Below are positions 12,745 to 19,269 of a DNA stretch of 64,000 nucleotides, piece after piece. The notes under the pieces are model-generated. The model did no database searches, was not told where the DNA came from, and saw nothing but the letters and a program-made list of their open reading frames with translations. Every line of letters starts with the position of its first letter. The first letter of the stretch is position 1. The DNA lies in contig NZ_JAJCVJ010000003.1 in the NCBI RefSeq assembly GCF_020567425.1, positions 186,001 to 250,000 of the forward strand, read 5' to 3'. Position numbers and translations under genes: made by a program. This stretch comes from Salinirubrum litoreum. GTDB lineage: Archaea; Halobacteriota; Halobacteria; Halobacteriales; Haloferacaceae.

Positions 12745-13320
12745 TCAGTCACTCGTCTCGTGGTCGGTCGCGCGTCCGTGCCGAGTTCCGGGAGTCGCGT
12801 CCTGTGAGTCCGGAACGGTCGGCCCGAACGACGACAGGCCGAGGTCGGCCCGCATCGCAGTGACGACCCGACGGCTCCGGTCGAGCAGCGTCCCGACGGG
12901 ACGACGGTCAGGATCGGCGTCGTACCGGGCGAGGAAGTCGAGGTAGTCGTCGACCGCTTCGCGGACCGCCGGGTCGACGACGTGGTAGTGCCGTTGGAAC
13001 GTCTCCGTCAGGTCGGCCGCCGGAGTCTCGATCGCCGACTCCTTGCTCATCGCGTACTTGTGTTTCTCCACCGTGAACCGGTCGTCCTCGTCGAGTTCGA
13101 CCGCGAGGCGGTTCAGCGCGATCATCCGGGACATCACGGCCGAGTACGCGGCGAGTCGTTCCCGGCGGACGTACTCGGGGACACCGGCGAGGTGACGCCG
13201 GTACTGGACGGCGGCGAGGACGGCCGTGGACCCGGCGATCACGAGCAGTGCGACACTCGCAACGACGAGTGCCGTGGTGGCCGGATCGACAGCCACCTGA
13301 AGAACGGCCGGCACTGTCAC
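12745..13320 (-). CDS. Single-span membrane protein in the opp operon, unknown function
   Basis: A 191-residue protein that I do not recognise. One strong N-terminal membrane segment (about residues 15-40, rich in Val, Ala and Leu) is followed by a charged, mostly helical cytoplasmic region and a polar tail. The start is a GTG at 13320 that overlaps the oppF stop as GTGA, a layout typical of translational coupling. That overlap and the long open frame make it a credible gene despite weak codon evidence. Its place between oppF and the amidohydrolase suggests an accessory role in the uptake system, but nothing in the sequence shows one. Confidence 0.7.
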   Translation of the reverse strand: MTVPAVLQVAVDPATTALVVASVALLVIAGSTAVLAAVQYRRHLAGVPEYVRRERLAAYSAVMSRMIALNRLAVELDEDDRFTVEKHKYAMSKESAIETPAADLTETFQRHYHVVDPAVREAVDDYLDFLARYDADPDRRPVGTLLDRSRRVVTAMRADLGLSSFGPTVPDSQDATPGTRHGRATDHETSD

Positions 13321-14357
13321 CCCTCCTGGTCCGGGCGCGGTCGCTCGGTCGCCGGATCGTAGAGGTGACAGGCGACCTGCTGGTCGGTGGGATTCCCGTC
13401 GTCTTCGTCTGGCGAGAGCAGGGTGACGTTCTCGTCACAGCGGTCGAACCGGTAGGTACACCGATCCTTGAACGGACAACCCTCGCTCGCGCCGAACTTC
13501 TCCTGGACGTCCGGCGGGATGGTCACCCGTTCCCGGTCGGTCGTCGGGTCGACGCGGGGAACCGCAGCGAGCAACGACTGGGTGTAGGGGTGTTTCGGCG
13601 ACCTGAGGACCGCCTCGGCGTCGCCGATCTCCATGAGTTCGCCCCGGTACATGATGCCGATCCGGTCGCAGATGTACCGCAGCAGCGAGAGGTCGTGGGA
13701 GATGTAGAGGATGGTGACCGACTGCTCCTCGACGAGCCGTTTGAACACGCCGAGCACGCCGGCGCGGACCGACACGTCCAGCATCGACGTGGGTTCGTCG
13801 GCGACGAGGAACGCCGGATCGAGCACCATCGCTCGCGCGAGCGCGACGCGCTGGCGTTGCCCACCAGAGAGTTCGTGCGGGAACTGTTCGACGAACTGTT
13901 CCGGGGGCCTGAGTCCACACTGGGCCAGCGTGTCGAGTACCTTCGCGTCCCGCGACTCCTCGTCGCCGATGTCGTGGATCACCAGCGGTTCGCGGATCCA
14001 CCGTCCCACCCGGAACCGGTCGTTGATCGACGAGTAGGGGTCCTGAAACACCATCTGGACGTCACGGCGGTAGGCGGTCAGGTCGTCACCGCGCAGGGTC
14101 GCCACGTTCTGCGTCCCGTCGCCGAAGTGGATCGTCCCGTCGGAGGGGTCCTCGAGTCGGGCGAGACAGCGACCGGTCGTGGTCTTCCCACAACCGCTCT
14201 CGCCCGCGAGGCCGAATATCTCGCCCTCCTCGATCGAGAAGCTCACGCCGTCGACCGCGTGGACGTGTCGCTGGGTCCCGAGCAGTTCGGGGAGCAGTCC
14301 GGTCTCGACCGGGAAGCGTTTCTCTAAGTTCTCGACGTCTATCACAGTCGGTGCCAT
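13317..14357 (-). CDS. oppF: Oligopeptide/dipeptide ABC transporter ATPase, OppF type
   Basis: A 346-residue ATPase. The Walker A GESGCGKTTT (about 51-60), Q-loop MVFQDPYSS, signature LSGGQRQR, Walker B FLVADEPTS and switch-His ISHD are all intact. The C-terminal oligopeptide-transporter extension carries four Cys (GCPFKDRC, then C and C) as in OppD/DppF proteins that can bind an iron-sulfur cluster. The start overlaps the end of the oppD-type gene by 16 nt, and the stop overlaps the next gene as GTGA. With the other opp proteins it should energise uptake of peptide- or amide-like solutes. Confidence 0.95.
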   Translation of the reverse strand: MAPTVIDVENLEKRFPVETGLLPELLGTQRHVHAVDGVSFSIEEGEIFGLAGESGCGKTTTGRCLARLEDPSDGTIHFGDGTQNVATLRGDDLTAYRRDVQMVFQDPYSSINDRFRVGRWIREPLVIHDIGDEESRDAKVLDTLAQCGLRPPEQFVEQFPHELSGGQRQRVALARAMVLDPAFLVADEPTSMLDVSVRAGVLGVFKRLVEEQSVTILYISHDLSLLRYICDRIGIMYRGELMEIGDAEAVLRSPKHPYTQSLLAAVPRVDPTTDRERVTIPPDVQEKFGASEGCPFKDRCTYRFDRCDENVTLLSPDEDDGNPTDQQVACHLYDPATERPRPDQEG

Positions 14358-15370
14358 CGGTCTGTCTCCTCCATGATCCGCTCGTAGTTCTCGTCCAGAT
14401 CGAGTCCGTCCTCGGTGACGTAACACCGGGCAGACTGCCCGGACTCGCGCGGCGTGAGCGCTGGCCGCGCCTCCCGACACCGCTCCTCGCGGTAGGGACA
14501 CCGGTCGTAGAACCGACAGCCGGTCGGTGGGCTGTGCAGGTCGGGTGGCTCACCGGCCACCGTGATCAACTCGCTCTCGGCGTCCGCGAGCGACGGGAAA
14601 GCGTTCAACAACCCCTGCGTGTAGGGGTGTTCCGGTTCGGTGAAGACGGTCTCGAGGGGGCCGACCTCCACGAGTTCGCCCGCGTACATCACCCCGACGC
14701 GATCGCAGGTCTCCGCGACGACGCTGATGTCGTGCGTGATCATCAACAGGGAGTTGCCCGTCTCGTCCGTCAGCCGGTCGATCTGAGCGAGGATGTGGTC
14801 CTGGGTGATCACGTCCAGTGCGGTGGTGGGCTCGTCGGCGAGGATGAACGCCGGTTCGAGCGCGAGCGCCATCGCGATCATCACGCGCTGGCGCATCCCG
14901 CCCGAGAGTTGGTGCGGATACGACTCGGTGCGCTCGCTGTCGAGGCCCACCCGGTCGAGCAACCGTTCGGCCCGCCCCAGAGCCGACTGCTTCGAGACGT
15001 TCTCGTGTAAGCGGATGGCCTCCGCGATCTGGTCACCGACCGTGTAGACGGGGTCGAGCGCGTTCATCGCGCTCTGGGAGACGATAGCGAGGTCGCGCCA
15101 CCGGATCGAGCGCAGCGTCTTCGGGTCGGCCTCGGTCACCTCGACGGTTCGGTCGCCGTCCTCGAGTCGGATCGACCCCTCGACGACCGAGCCGTTCTCG
15201 GGCAACAGGCCGATCAGCGACTTCGCGACCGTCGTCTTCCCACAGCCTGACTCGCCGACGAGCCCGAGTCGTTGGCCGGCCGGGAGTTCGAAGGAGACGT
15301 CGTCGACCGCCCGCACCGGTCCCTCGTCGGTGGCGTACTCGATCGAGAGGTTCTCGACGACGAGTCTCAT
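14342..15370 (-). CDS. oppD: Oligopeptide/dipeptide ABC transporter ATPase, OppD type
   Basis: A 342-residue ATPase. Walker A GESGCGKTTV (about 37-46), Q-loop IVSQSAMNALDP, signature LSGGMRQR, Walker B FILADEPTT and ITHD are intact. The C-terminal extension has the four-Cys pattern (CRFYDRC, then C and C). The IVSQSAMNALDP Q-loop is the OppD/DppD version, which separates it from the partner ATPase. The start overlaps the stop of the upstream permease gene as ATGA, so translation is probably coupled. Confidence 0.95.
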   Translation of the reverse strand: MRLVVENLSIEYATDEGPVRAVDDVSFELPAGQRLGLVGESGCGKTTVAKSLIGLLPENGSVVEGSIRLEDGDRTVEVTEADPKTLRSIRWRDLAIVSQSAMNALDPVYTVGDQIAEAIRLHENVSKQSALGRAERLLDRVGLDSERTESYPHQLSGGMRQRVMIAMALALEPAFILADEPTTALDVITQDHILAQIDRLTDETGNSLLMITHDISVVAETCDRVGVMYAGELVEVGPLETVFTEPEHPYTQGLLNAFPSLADAESELITVAGEPPDLHSPPTGCRFYDRCPYREERCREARPALTPRESGQSARCYVTEDGLDLDENYERIMEETDRWHRL

Positions 15371-16308
15371 TGGCCACGACTCCTGAGTTTCGGGTTGACT
15401 ACTTCTTCGATCCCCTGCCCGAGGAAGTACGTCGCGAGGACGAACCCGATGATCAACAGGCCCGGCGCGGCGATCCAGAGCCAGAGTTCCTGCTGGATCG
15501 CGTTCGCGGTGTGGGCGTTGTTCAACACGCGGCCCCAACTGATCGCGTCGGGGTCGCCGAAGCCGATGAACGACAGGCCGGCCTCGGCGATGATCGCCCA
15601 CCCGACCGCGAACACGGAGTAGAGCATCGTGATCGGCAGGACCTTCGGGAAGATGTGGTGGAGCACGATCCGGGCGTCGGACGCGCCACTCGCGACGGCG
15701 GCATCGATCATCGGCTGTTCTTTGATCGACACGACCTCCGAGCGTATCACCCGTGCGGTGTCACGCCAGAGGAGCGCCGAGATGGCGACGACGATGCTCA
15801 GGTGGCCCCGCCCGAGGACGAGGATCAGCACGATGACGAAGGGGAGAAACGGGAGGCCGTAGGCGACGTCGACGGCGCGCATGAACAGGTTCTCGACGCG
15901 CCCGCCACGGTAGCCCGCCACGATGCCGATCAGCGTCCCGACGCCCGCGACGACGACGGCGGTCGAGAGTCCGACGAGGAACGCGATCCGCGTCCCGTAC
16001 ACGAGTCGTGAGAACAGGGGGTACGCCGAGTCCGTGGTGCCGAGCGGGGTCGAGACGGACGGGCCACCGCCCTTCACCCAGCCCTCCTCGTCGGTGATCC
16101 GTTCGTTCGGGTCGTTCGGTGCGATGACCGGTGCCGCGACGGCCAACACGACGAACAGCAGGAGGATCACGGCTCCGATCTTCGCCATGTCGTTCGCCAG
16201 GACGACGCCCAGCGTGCGTTCGATCTGTTCGATTCGGCGGGTCGAGACGTACGGTACACGCCTGGCGGTTTGGGCGAGTATCGTGAGAGTGCGGTCTTTG
16301 GCGCTCAT
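15367..16308 (-). CDS. oppC: ABC transporter permease, OppC/DppC type
   Basis: A 313-residue inner permease subunit. An N-terminal cytoplasmic segment is followed by a first membrane helix (about 37-60), a loop with WVKGGGPSVSTPLGTTDSAY (the usual HPLGTD-like region of DppC), and five more helices. The EAA-like coupling loop reads DAAVASGASDARIVLHHIFP. The gene starts 5 nt after the stop of the oppB gene and overlaps the next ATPase as ATGA, as expected of an operon. Confidence 0.94.
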   Translation of the reverse strand: MSAKDRTLTILAQTARRVPYVSTRRIEQIERTLGVVLANDMAKIGAVILLLFVVLAVAAPVIAPNDPNERITDEEGWVKGGGPSVSTPLGTTDSAYPLFSRLVYGTRIAFLVGLSTAVVVAGVGTLIGIVAGYRGGRVENLFMRAVDVAYGLPFLPFVIVLILVLGRGHLSIVVAISALLWRDTARVIRSEVVSIKEQPMIDAAVASGASDARIVLHHIFPKVLPITMLYSVFAVGWAIIAEAGLSFIGFGDPDAISWGRVLNNAHTANAIQQELWLWIAAPGLLIIGFVLATYFLGQGIEEVVNPKLRSRGQ

Positions 16309-16313
16309 TGGTA

Positions 16314-17288
16314 TCAGTCGTAGGTCACGCGGGGGTCGAGGTAGCCGTAGGTGAGGTCGACGAGCAGGTTCATCAGCAGGATGACGCCGGCCATCATCAG
16401 GAAGGAGAACTGTGCGACGGGGAAGTCACCCCGGAAGACGGAGTTGACCATCAGTCGGCCGATGCCGGGGTACGAGAACACCGTCTCGACGAGGAGGTTC
16501 CCGCCGAAGGAGTAGCCGATGGCGACCCCGAAAGCGGTGGTCACGGGCAGGAGCGCGTTCCGCGCGGCGTGTCGGTACATGATCCGACTCTCGCTGGCCC
16601 CCTTCGCTCTGACCATCTCGATGAACTCCTCGTTCATCACCTCGAACAGGCTGGTCCGCATCAACAGCAGTGGGAGTCCCATCAGGTACAGCGTCATCGA
16701 GGCGATGGGCAACACGATGTGGCTGTAGAACGCGGGCATGGTCACCAGTTCGAGGTGGCTGTCGAACTCCGTCCCCGGCGGGAGCATCCCGGACATCGGG
16801 AACAGGCCGAGCACACTCCCGAACACGAACAGCAGGACGAGACCGAGCCAGAATCGCGGGGTGGAGCGGAACACGAGCGCCAGCGTCAGTCCGACCCGTT
16901 CGCGGGAGTTGCCCCGGTTCCAGCCGAGGTAGACCCCGCCGATGACGCCGAAGAAGTAGCCGATCACGATCGACGGGATCGTCAAGAAGAGGCTGTTGTA
17001 CAGGCGTTCGACGACGATGTCACCCACCGGCGAGGAGTAGTAGAAGCTCCGCCCGAACTCGAGCGTGACGATGTTGACGAGGTAGTTGTAGTACTGCACG
17101 TAGAGCGGTTCGTCGAGTCCGAACGACGCCCGGACCGCCTCGATCTGCTCCGGGGACATGTTGTCCGAGATGTGGAGTCCGATCGGCGATCCCACCTGCC
17201 GGAAGAGGAAAAAGAGGATCGTCGCGATGACGAAGAACGTGAGTACTGTGCCGACGGTTCGTCTGGCCGCGTACCTGCGAAGTGACAT
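16314..17288 (-). CDS. oppB: ABC transporter permease, OppB/DppB type
   Basis: A 324-residue permease with six predicted membrane helices. The N-terminal MSLRRYAARRTVGTVLTFFV is typical of DppB, as is the EAA loop near IEMVRAKGASESRIMYRHA. It also has ETVFSYPGIGRL and ends with DLTYGYLDPR. It is the first gene of a nine-gene minus-strand run that ends at 8436. A TATA-like GATTTAATTC (complement, about 17330-17340) lies about 45 nt upstream. It is divergent from the substrate-binding protein gene, and the 199-nt shared region probably holds both promoters. Confidence 0.95.
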   Translation of the reverse strand: MSLRRYAARRTVGTVLTFFVIATILFFLFRQVGSPIGLHISDNMSPEQIEAVRASFGLDEPLYVQYYNYLVNIVTLEFGRSFYYSSPVGDIVVERLYNSLFLTIPSIVIGYFFGVIGGVYLGWNRGNSRERVGLTLALVFRSTPRFWLGLVLLFVFGSVLGLFPMSGMLPPGTEFDSHLELVTMPAFYSHIVLPIASMTLYLMGLPLLLMRTSLFEVMNEEFIEMVRAKGASESRIMYRHAARNALLPVTTAFGVAIGYSFGGNLLVETVFSYPGIGRLMVNSVFRGDFPVAQFSFLMMAGVILLMNLLVDLTYGYLDPRVTYD

Positions 17289-17416
17289 GGGTGGCTGTGT
17301 CCGGTCTACGTGGTATCGTGCTTCGCCGGGAATTAAATCTTGTGGCGCGTCAACAGTTGACACATCGCTGAAACCGGAGAGACCGAACCGCACCAATCGA
17401 CGGAGACGGACGAATT

Positions 17417-17426
17417 CTACCGGTAG
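17417..17426. promoter_or_regulatory. 10-bp palindrome in opp/SBP divergent promoter region
   Basis: CTACCGGTAG is perfectly self-complementary and lies about 35 nt upstream of the SBP TATA box in the divergent region between oppB and the SBP gene. It could be an operator; a 10-bp palindrome alone is weak evidence. Confidence 0.3.
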
Positions 17427-17448
17427 ACAGGTCAGAACCGGAATATGA

Positions 17449-17460
17449 GATAAATATAAG
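17449..17460 (+). promoter_or_regulatory. TATA box of the substrate-binding protein gene
   Basis: GATAAATATAAG is the clearest TATA element in the opp divergent region and is centred about 33 nt before the ATG at 17488. This gives a leader of only a few bases. Binding-protein genes usually need strong expression, which fits. Confidence 0.7.
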
Positions 17461-17487
17461 ACACGGTGTTGCAAAGCTGATCATGGT

Positions 17488-19269
17488 ATGCCAAGACATA
17501 GCTATATCGGTCACGACGAGTCGACCGAAACCACAGCACAGAATCGGAGTCGTCGATGGCTGATGAAGGCGGCCGGAGCGCTCGGACTCGGGGCGGTAAC
17601 GTCGCTCGCTGGCTGCAGCGGTGACGGTGGTGCCAACGTCTCGGATCTGACGGAGGTCCCGGAGATGGTCATGTGGGGACCGACTCCGGAGATGGGCACG
17701 GAGAACCAGACGGCCGAACTCGCCTTCGAGGCGATGGCCGAGGAACTCCCGCTCCCGATCACGTTCGAGGCGCGGCGACACAGCAGGAGTGTCGAGGACG
17801 CCTTCTTCAACCACGACTTCCACGCCTGGTACAGTATGTTCACGCTCAGGCCGGAACGGGTAGACCCACACGCGCTCCTCGTGAGCAACCTGATGTCGAA
17901 CGAGACGGCCTGTGGCTCGTTCAACATCAGCGAGTACGAGAACGAGACCGCACAGGAACTGTTCGAGGAGTCTGCCCGGACCCTCGACCGCGACGCGCGA
18001 CGCGAGGTCATCCACCGCATCCAGGACGAACTCGCGACCGTGGAGGGCGACATCCCGTTCAGTTCGGAGCGAGGCCTCGTCTTCCCCGTCTTCCCGCAAC
18101 TGTACAACAGCGCGCTGTTCGGGAACATCACCGAGACCAGCGGGCTCGGCATCCGTAACATCTGGACGTTCAACGAGTGTACCGTCGAGGGCGATCAGGG
18201 GACGATGATCGTCGTCCTCACCTCGGAGTCGGCGAATCTGAACCCGCTGATCTCCGAGGCCGGCAACCGGAGTGCCGTCAGGAACGTCTACGACAGCCTG
18301 ACGAAGATGGGTCCGGACGGCCAGCCGGAACCGTGGCTGGCGACCGACTGGGAGGCGTCGGAGGACAACCTCCAGTTCACGTTCAACATTCGGTCGGGCC
18401 ACTCGTTCCACGACGGCGAACCGCTCACCGCCGAGGACGTCCGGTTCTCCTACGAGTACCACGCCGAACACAGCCCCTTCTTCGGCGGTGCCGTCTCGAA
18501 CATCACCAGCGTCGAGGCCCCGGACGACACGACGGTCGTGTTCGGGCTCGAAGAGCCGTTCGCGCCGATCTTCACGCAGACGTTCAACCGGATTCCGATC
18601 CTCCCACAGCACATCTGGGAGAACGTCCCGGAGGACGTGGACGCACAGGAGGCCTTCGAGTGGTCGCCCACCGAGGAGGGCGCGTTCGTCGGGAGCGGAC
18701 ACATGGAGTTCGAGAACTGGCGACGCGGCTCGGAGATCGTCCTCAGCCGAAACGACGACCACTGGCGACCCGCCAACCTCGACGGGATCATCTTCAACGT
18801 CATCACCAACACCCAGGCGATCATCAGCGGGCTGGAACAGGGCGACTACCACCTCCTCTGGCAACTCAGCGGTGCCGATCCGACGACGCTCGTCGAGTTG
18901 GCCGAGAACAACGACAACCTCGAACTGGTCGAGGTGCTGAGCACGGGGAGCCGAGCGATGATCATGAACACGAAGTTCGGACCGTTCAGCTTCCCCGAGG
19001 TCCGGGCGGCCGTCGAGTCGGTCGTCCCGAAGGGTGTCATCAGAAACGAGGTCTGGGACGGACTCGCCGAGGAGGGGCACGGCCAGTACTCGCCGGCGGT
19101 CTCGTTCTGGCACAACCCCGACCAGAAGAAGTGGGGTGCAGAGTACACCGGCCGCGAGGAAGCGATCACCATGCTCGAGGAGCGTGGCTTCGTCTTCGAG
19201 AACGGGACGGCCTACTACCCCGACGGGGAGGCACCACCGGAGCAACTCGACGGGTACGGGTGCGAGTAG
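17488..19269 (+). CDS. Substrate-binding lipoprotein (SBP_bac_5 family), apparently circularly permuted
   Basis: A 593-residue Tat lipoprotein. SRRWLMKAAG is the twin-arginine motif and LAGC (Cys43) the lipobox. Residues about 60-215 look like the part normally C-terminal in peptide-binding proteins: a DPH...L segment, SEYENETAQELFEE, then DRDARREVIHRIQDEL. From about 238 the normal N-terminal part begins (TMIVVLTSESANLNPL, the PEPWLATDW segment, FHDGEPLTAEDV, then FEPF-type and RNDDHWRPANLD segments). The chain ends at the Y-x-G-R-E-E-A-x-x-M-L-E-E-R-G-F stage, exactly where ordinary members continue into what is found here at the N-terminus. It should feed the opp permease; the ligand is unknown. 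Confidence 0.9.
   Translation: MPRHSYIGHDESTETTAQNRSRRWLMKAAGALGLGAVTSLAGCSGDGGANVSDLTEVPEMVMWGPTPEMGTENQTAELAFEAMAEELPLPITFEARRHSRSVEDAFFNHDFHAWYSMFTLRPERVDPHALLVSNLMSNETACGSFNISEYENETAQELFEESARTLDRDARREVIHRIQDELATVEGDIPFSSERGLVFPVFPQLYNSALFGNITETSGLGIRNIWTFNECTVEGDQGTMIVVLTSESANLNPLISEAGNRSAVRNVYDSLTKMGPDGQPEPWLATDWEASEDNLQFTFNIRSGHSFHDGEPLTAEDVRFSYEYHAEHSPFFGGAVSNITSVEAPDDTTVVFGLEEPFAPIFTQTFNRIPILPQHIWENVPEDVDAQEAFEWSPTEEGAFVGSGHMEFENWRRGSEIVLSRNDDHWRPANLDGIIFNVITNTQAIISGLEQGDYHLLWQLSGADPTTLVELAENNDNLELVEVLSTGSRAMIMNTKFGPFSFPEVRAAVESVVPKGVIRNEVWDGLAEEGHGQYSPAVSFWHNPDQKKWGAEYTGREEAITMLEERGFVFENGTAYYPDGEAPPEQLDGYGCE

Follow-up and report, generated by a model that had tools for sequence, protein, structure and literature searches.

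Does the product of one long reading frame in this haloarchaeal DNA carry the two parts of a peptide-binding protein in exchanged order, or is it a shortened protein with a foreign N-terminal domain? The frame lies in a window of 64,000 nucleotides, the whole stretch that was analysed, which is part of contig 3 of the 4.06-Mb genome of Salinirubrum litoreum. The frame is complete and open (Table 1). A sequence-only reading had proposed a circular permutation, in which the normal C-terminal part of an SBP_bac_5 protein directly follows the lipobox.

Table 1. Coordinates of the permuted binding protein, its parts and its neighbours in the window, and of the two further permuted genes of the genome
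Feature	Position	Strand	Basis
SBP_bac_5 substrate-binding lipoprotein, circularly permuted, 593 aa	17488..19269	+	Pfam and profile comparisons
Tat-type signal, RR at residues 22-23; lipobox LAGC ending at C43	17488..17616	+	read in sequence; kept in relatives
Residues 56-235, C-terminal segment of normal-order family-5 proteins (DppA about 345-500)	17653..18192	+	
Junction at about residue 236, old C-terminus into old N-terminus	18193..18201	+	
Residues 236-593, N-terminal segment of normal-order proteins; last element, helix preceding the break	18193..19266	+	
Divergent intergenic region with TATA-like stretch ATAAATATAA at 17450-17459	17289..17487	.	sequence
DppB-like permease, divergent from the SBP gene	16314..17288	-	Pfam BPD_transp_1 and BPD_transp_1_N
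DppC-like permease	15367..16308	-	Pfam BPD_transp_1 and OppC_N
DppD-like ATPase	14342..15370	-	Pfam ABC_tran and oligo_HPY; start inferred
DppF-like ATPase	13317..14357	-	Pfam ABC_tran and oligo_HPY; start inferred
Catabolic region around the importer	3994-31092		M32, M20 and M19 peptidases, several amidohydrolases, IclR regulator
Further window genes	3994-31092		phosphotriesterase-family protein, cyclase, SDR, 2-hydroxyacid dehydrogenase
L002, permuted SBP, same genome	G000:C3:257136-257921		profile match spans the order-change point
L008, permuted SBP, same genome	G000:C2:398052-398936		

A Pfam search revealed that SBP_bac_5 (PF00496) matches residues 279-569 alone, at profile positions 1-279 of 368 (E 1e-53), with a score of 183 bits against the curated cut-off of 32.4. 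As the match stops at position 279, the last quarter of the profile is missing from its expected place. The starts of the NCBIfam models and of the solved family-5 structures align from about residue 238. Residues 56-235 alone gave no significant match to solved structures or profiles, with structure matches at chance level, and rescanning the swapped protein with Pfam and NCBIfam yielded a match no longer than before. Therefore, the single window protein has diverged too far to reveal the relation, and relatives were needed to test the permutation.

Profile comparison of the family gave a clear answer. Alignment by hhalign of eight permuted proteins with eight normal proteins of the same genome produced two crossed blocks with scores of 405 and 100, and a swap at residue 236 turned these into one alignment of 467 columns with a score of 490. 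With 41 permuted and 18 normal proteins, the unswapped profiles again aligned in two blocks, query 173-510 with template 48-385 (score 673) and query 4-171 with template 389-548 (score 239, E 1e-29), so that the family shows no normal end-to-end alignment. After the swap at residue 236, the two profiles aligned end to end in a single block over 494 columns (score 909, E 7e-117). The full-length match that the sequence-only reading had expected after a swap was thus obtained for the family, but not for the single diverged window sequence. When the swap point was varied in 40-residue steps, the top scores fell at the points nearest the 236 junction, close to the residues 215-235 at which the break had been anticipated. 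The gap in the template between the crossed blocks runs merely from 385 to 389, indicating that no part is missing, as had also been noted. Half-profiles match once each, the N-terminal part before the C-terminal part in permuted reading frames and in the opposite order in normal ones. These are the general marks of a circular permutation: each part once, one break point, and an end-to-end match after the swap only. Since the SBP_bac_5 regions are out of their normal linear order unless swapped, the protein is a permuted variant of the family and not an ordinary member. The comparisons thus support the assignment of the window product, by sequence, as a circular permutant of SBP_bac_5.

The N-terminal segment itself decides against a truncated binding protein, which would have an added, unrelated domain in its first 180 residues and would have lost its normal C-terminal part. 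The shortened matches of Pfam and NCBIfam and the silence of residues 56-235 on their own are what such a protein would give. However, 29 of 31 N-terminal halves of relatives are recognised by Pfam as SBP_bac_5 by themselves, and those of ten relatives match profile positions of about 290-366, so that together with positions 1-279 in the window protein all regions of the profile are accounted for. The N-terminal profile matches normal-order binding proteins at their C-terminal ends (E down to 8e-28) and solved structures in their C-terminal thirds only, including 8efz 337-490 (E 5e-20), AppA 361-495, DppA 356-496 and OppA 375-485; the solved Dpp, Opp and Nik proteins are matched at their C-terminal ends only. 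The segment after the lipobox is therefore the C-terminal part of family 5, as the sequence-only reading had held, and residues 236-593 end at the helix that normally precedes it. Given the relatives' Pfam matches, the solved-structure matches and the swapped alignment, in which nothing is missing, we reject the truncated form and consider it extremely improbable.

The permuted order is not confined to this gene. Three permuted binding proteins are encoded in the S. litoreum genome, namely the window protein, L002 and L008. The latter two belong to distant sub-branches of the permuted family. In L002, the lipobox is followed by a long glycine-rich linker, and a dppB gene lies directly downstream. 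Ten other family-5 proteins were found in the genome; seven have the normal order (one weakly), and the remaining three have a C-terminal segment so diverged that it escapes detection. Full-length collinear relatives in other genomes of the same family are at most 48% identical. A scan of named genomes, for which a closer sequence set was used because the eight-member alignment was too diverse, found permuted relatives in Natronococcus, Martelella, Oceanobacillus, Pararhodobacter, Halanaerobiales, Spirochaeta, Billgrantia and Desulfobacteraceae, and plasmid-borne ones in Nitratireductor, Roseomonas, Ketogulonicigenium and Haladaptatus. For wider counts, a profile spanning the junction was calibrated on known cases, which gave one piece with E <1e-30 for permuted and two pieces with E >1e-26 for normal proteins. 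At an E-value of 1e-30, permuted genes occur in at least 215 of 292 Halobacteria genomes (at least 64 of 77 genera). The corresponding genome counts are at least 15 of 250 for Thermoproteota (the GTDB phylum of L102), at least 19 of 249 for Bacillota, the phylum of Oceanobacillus, and at least 8 of 190 for Alphaproteobacteria, the class of Martelella. All of them are lower bounds, with the best few candidates per genome scored. The permuted form is thus an old and widespread family and extends well beyond the single case first noticed. The records looked at are labelled simply 'ABC transporter substrate-binding protein'. Two loci showed individual defects: an apparent frameshift near the C-terminal end in L083 (Halolamina pelagica CDK2), and in L054 (uncultured archaeon A07HR67) a C-part in an open frame with no N-part detected.

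Circular permutation by tandem duplication passes through fusions of tandem genes, and a recent rearrangement or an assembly error joining two tandem binding-protein genes into a pseudogene or chimera would resemble a step on that route. Nevertheless, the permuted order is identical in about 100 loci of independent archaeal and bacterial genomes, with frames and signal peptides intact, and a whole clade carries it. The signal peptides also fit their hosts, being of the Tat lipoprotein type in haloarchaea and of the Sec type in Pseudomonadota, with a lipobox in Oceanobacillus. The collinear relatives refute the pseudogene or chimera, to which we give next to no credence.

The predicted structure of the permuted protein is in keeping with these comparisons. 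An AlphaFold2 model of the window protein, built with 41 permuted sequences, has a pLDDT of 85.6 and a pTM of 0.84, with the confident part beginning at about residue 50 and extending nearly to the C-terminus. Foldseek with the full model matched AppA, NikZ, DppA and OppA partially, over 378 columns with a TM of 0.45, the alignments being partial because the method keeps the chain order. Structure prediction, which had been suggested as a check, thus gave a confident model but only partial alignments that depend on chain order. The N-terminal half modelled alone was poor, and its Foldseek matches, nearly all of them to family-5 binding proteins, were not significant. Taken together, the predictions support one compact fold of family 5, and a normal fold is suggested for the permuted protein. 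The junction-spanning profile gave a one-piece match to no solved chain listed, and therefore a permuted member with a solved structure apparently does not exist. Profile alignment to solved structures places the break of the main form at about DppA residue 345. This position is within domain III, which we take to span about residues 261-479 of DppA; this would put the two new termini, together with the lipid, on the C-lobe. The homology of the N-terminal profile to C-terminal ends agrees with the earlier suggestion that the lipid anchor sits on a different part of the fold, here on a different lobe.

A tree on the segment with the same order in both forms placed 79 of 80 permuted proteins in one clade (SH-aLRT 98). 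The main form occurs in Halobacteria, bacteria and some Thermoproteota, and Thermoproteota also contain a second permuted form, represented by 11 proteins (L142-L145, L147, L149, L150 and L153-L156). In this form the signal is followed by the second part of the C-segment, the N-segment and the first part of the C-segment, each present once. As in the main form, the old C-terminus is fused to the old N-terminus with every segment in single copy, whereas the chain is cut at about DppA 200-206 and most members end in a stalk and a C-terminal transmembrane helix. A location of this second break at the hinge of domains I and III was rejected on the same mapping. Other Thermoproteota proteins (L102/L138, L140, L146, L148, L151 and L152) combine the main permuted order with a C-terminal transmembrane anchor, which in L140 and L146 is preceded by stalk domains. 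A normal-order protein from a Nitrospirota MAG, L139 (the same gene as L109), scores unusually high with both halves against permuted profiles, and in trees it is the normal-order protein closest to one permuted group or another.

The permutation may have arisen several times, in the main form, in the second form of Thermoproteota and perhaps in others, and not once; we rate this at slightly under an even chance. Two break points are known, and the best trees place the Thermoproteota permuted proteins outside the main clade. On the other hand, trees that unite all permuted proteins in one clade were not rejected (AU p 0.144 and 0.319), and the branches are long; L102 as an independent event was likewise not confirmed (AU p 0.144). 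The two forms may stem from a single tandem fusion that was trimmed in two ways, or from more than one event. In either case, the permuted order likely originated by tandem duplication with in-frame fusion followed by loss of the outer parts; the expected intermediate, a reading frame with a duplicated segment, was not seen among the loci examined. A more far-reaching reading, which we consider less likely than not, is that the cluster C fold was permuted more than once, at two loops, and that these variants persisted because their new tether position changes how the anchored receptor and its permease meet.

The permuted gene is linked to importer genes. In the window, the two oligopeptide-type permeases and two ATPases are divergent from the binding-protein gene and not directly downstream of it, and the TATA-like stretch in the intergenic region may be a promoter element. 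Among the 53 permuted loci with flanks, dppB is directly downstream in 46, and a complete set of dppB, C, D and F is found in 46. In a DppB tree, the partners of permuted and of normal binding proteins separate by a single change (support 69), and none of 500 shuffles gave so low a number of changes. This linkage bears on the idea that the permuted proteins are mainly sensors or scavenging receptors which the new tether holds off the permease. Many binding proteins do serve receptors as well as importers, and the lipid anchor would be on another lobe. Nevertheless, the adjacent dppB, the complete importers and the permeases that form a group of their own, even at a support of only 69, make a mainly sensory role very unlikely. 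For the permuted protein as a binding protein of the importer, the neighbouring genes indicate the kind of ligand. The M32 peptidase near the importer is an M32 carboxypeptidase and the M19 enzyme an M19 dipeptidase, the Ketogulonicigenium locus has oxoprolinase/hydantoinase genes and M20 and M28 peptidases as neighbours, and the Haladaptatus locus has a dipeptide epimerase and a D-aminoacylase. On these neighbours, a small peptide or amino-acid derivative would be the likeliest ligand class.

Based on these results, we propose with a probability of about 0.93 that the window encodes a naturally permuted SBP_bac_5 (cluster C) lipoprotein serving the adjacent DppBCDF-like importer. After the Tat signal, the lipobox and a short linker, the chain would start inside domain III of the C-lobe and run through the normal C-terminus. 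A direct junction would then connect to the normal N-terminus, from which the chain would continue through domain II and the first half of domain III to its end at the helix before the break. As the cyclic order of the elements is unchanged, a normal bilobed fold with a normal cleft is expected. The lipid tether would have moved from the N-lobe to the C-lobe, and a small peptide or amino-acid derivative would be captured and passed to DppBC by the usual Venus-flytrap cycle. Most likely, then, the permuted protein works as an ordinary peptide-type binding protein with its anchor on the C-lobe. The analysis shows the permutation, its inheritance across a large family and its linkage to dppBCDF, and from these we infer the normal fold, the tether position, the transport function and the ligand class.

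The DppA signal peptide presumably has 28 residues, with Arg383 and Asp436 of the precursor as mature residues 355 and 408. In the E. coli complex, the scoop of DppB enters the cleft between the lobes and contacts Arg383 and Asp436 of DppA (precursor numbering), which also bind the dipeptide (PMC12136057). Mature residue 355 falls at the edge of the relocated segment and residue 408 inside it, so that the part contacting ligand and scoop would lie next to the tether. Capture and delivery are expected to be normal, with the tethered protein differently oriented; any advantage of this is speculation. The authors of the TpMglB-2 study made a comparable suggestion, namely that a permuted order may be suited to binding proteins with an anchor (PMC4990184). 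However, the Pseudomonadota members are Sec-secreted and apparently unanchored, which argues against anchoring as the full account of the permutation.

Comparison with known systems places the family in cluster C. DppA, OppA, AppA and NikA (PF00496, cluster C) contain the same fold segments, each once and in the same cyclic order, and share the dppBCDF partners, whereas the permuted chain starts at about DppA 345 and ends just before it, and carries the signal and lipid anchor on the C-lobe segment. The importer architecture of E. coli DppABCDF is shared as well, including the location of Arg383 and Asp436 relative to the moved segment (PMC12136057), but DppA has the normal order and an arginine equivalent to Arg383 is not clearly kept in the permuted family (consensus, by eye). 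TpMglB-2 (Tp0684) of Treponema pallidum is a circularly permuted cluster B, or type I, glucose-binding lipoprotein, termed 'cluster Bc' (PMC4990184). Both are natural permutations of a tethered binding protein of an ABC importer with the two termini in one lobe, while TpMglB-2 belongs to the cluster B sugar class, has another break and is found in treponemes and many Gram-positive bacteria (PMC4990184). The present family belongs to cluster C, in archaea and bacteria, and the sequence and structure matches of the window protein are to family 5 and not to the cluster B sugar-binding fold. Natural permutation of an importer binding protein is thus already published for cluster B (PMC4990184); for SBP_bac_5 and peptide-binding proteins we found no report of a natural permutant in an incompletely covered literature, which is weak evidence, and the SBP_bac_5 case would be what is new here.

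Few importer receptors have been studied as much as the SBP_bac_5 proteins. Even so, roughly three quarters of the haloarchaeal genomes sampled, and several bacterial phyla, contain a permuted branch that carries only a generic annotation in the records looked at. Profile methods read permuted binding proteins as truncated, which calls for caution with such matches. The family offers a natural experiment on whether the termini and tether point of a binding protein matter for docking on the permease, and another on the origin of permutations in large two-lobed proteins. In addition, the breaks that evolution has accepted in the cluster C fold could guide the design of biosensors.
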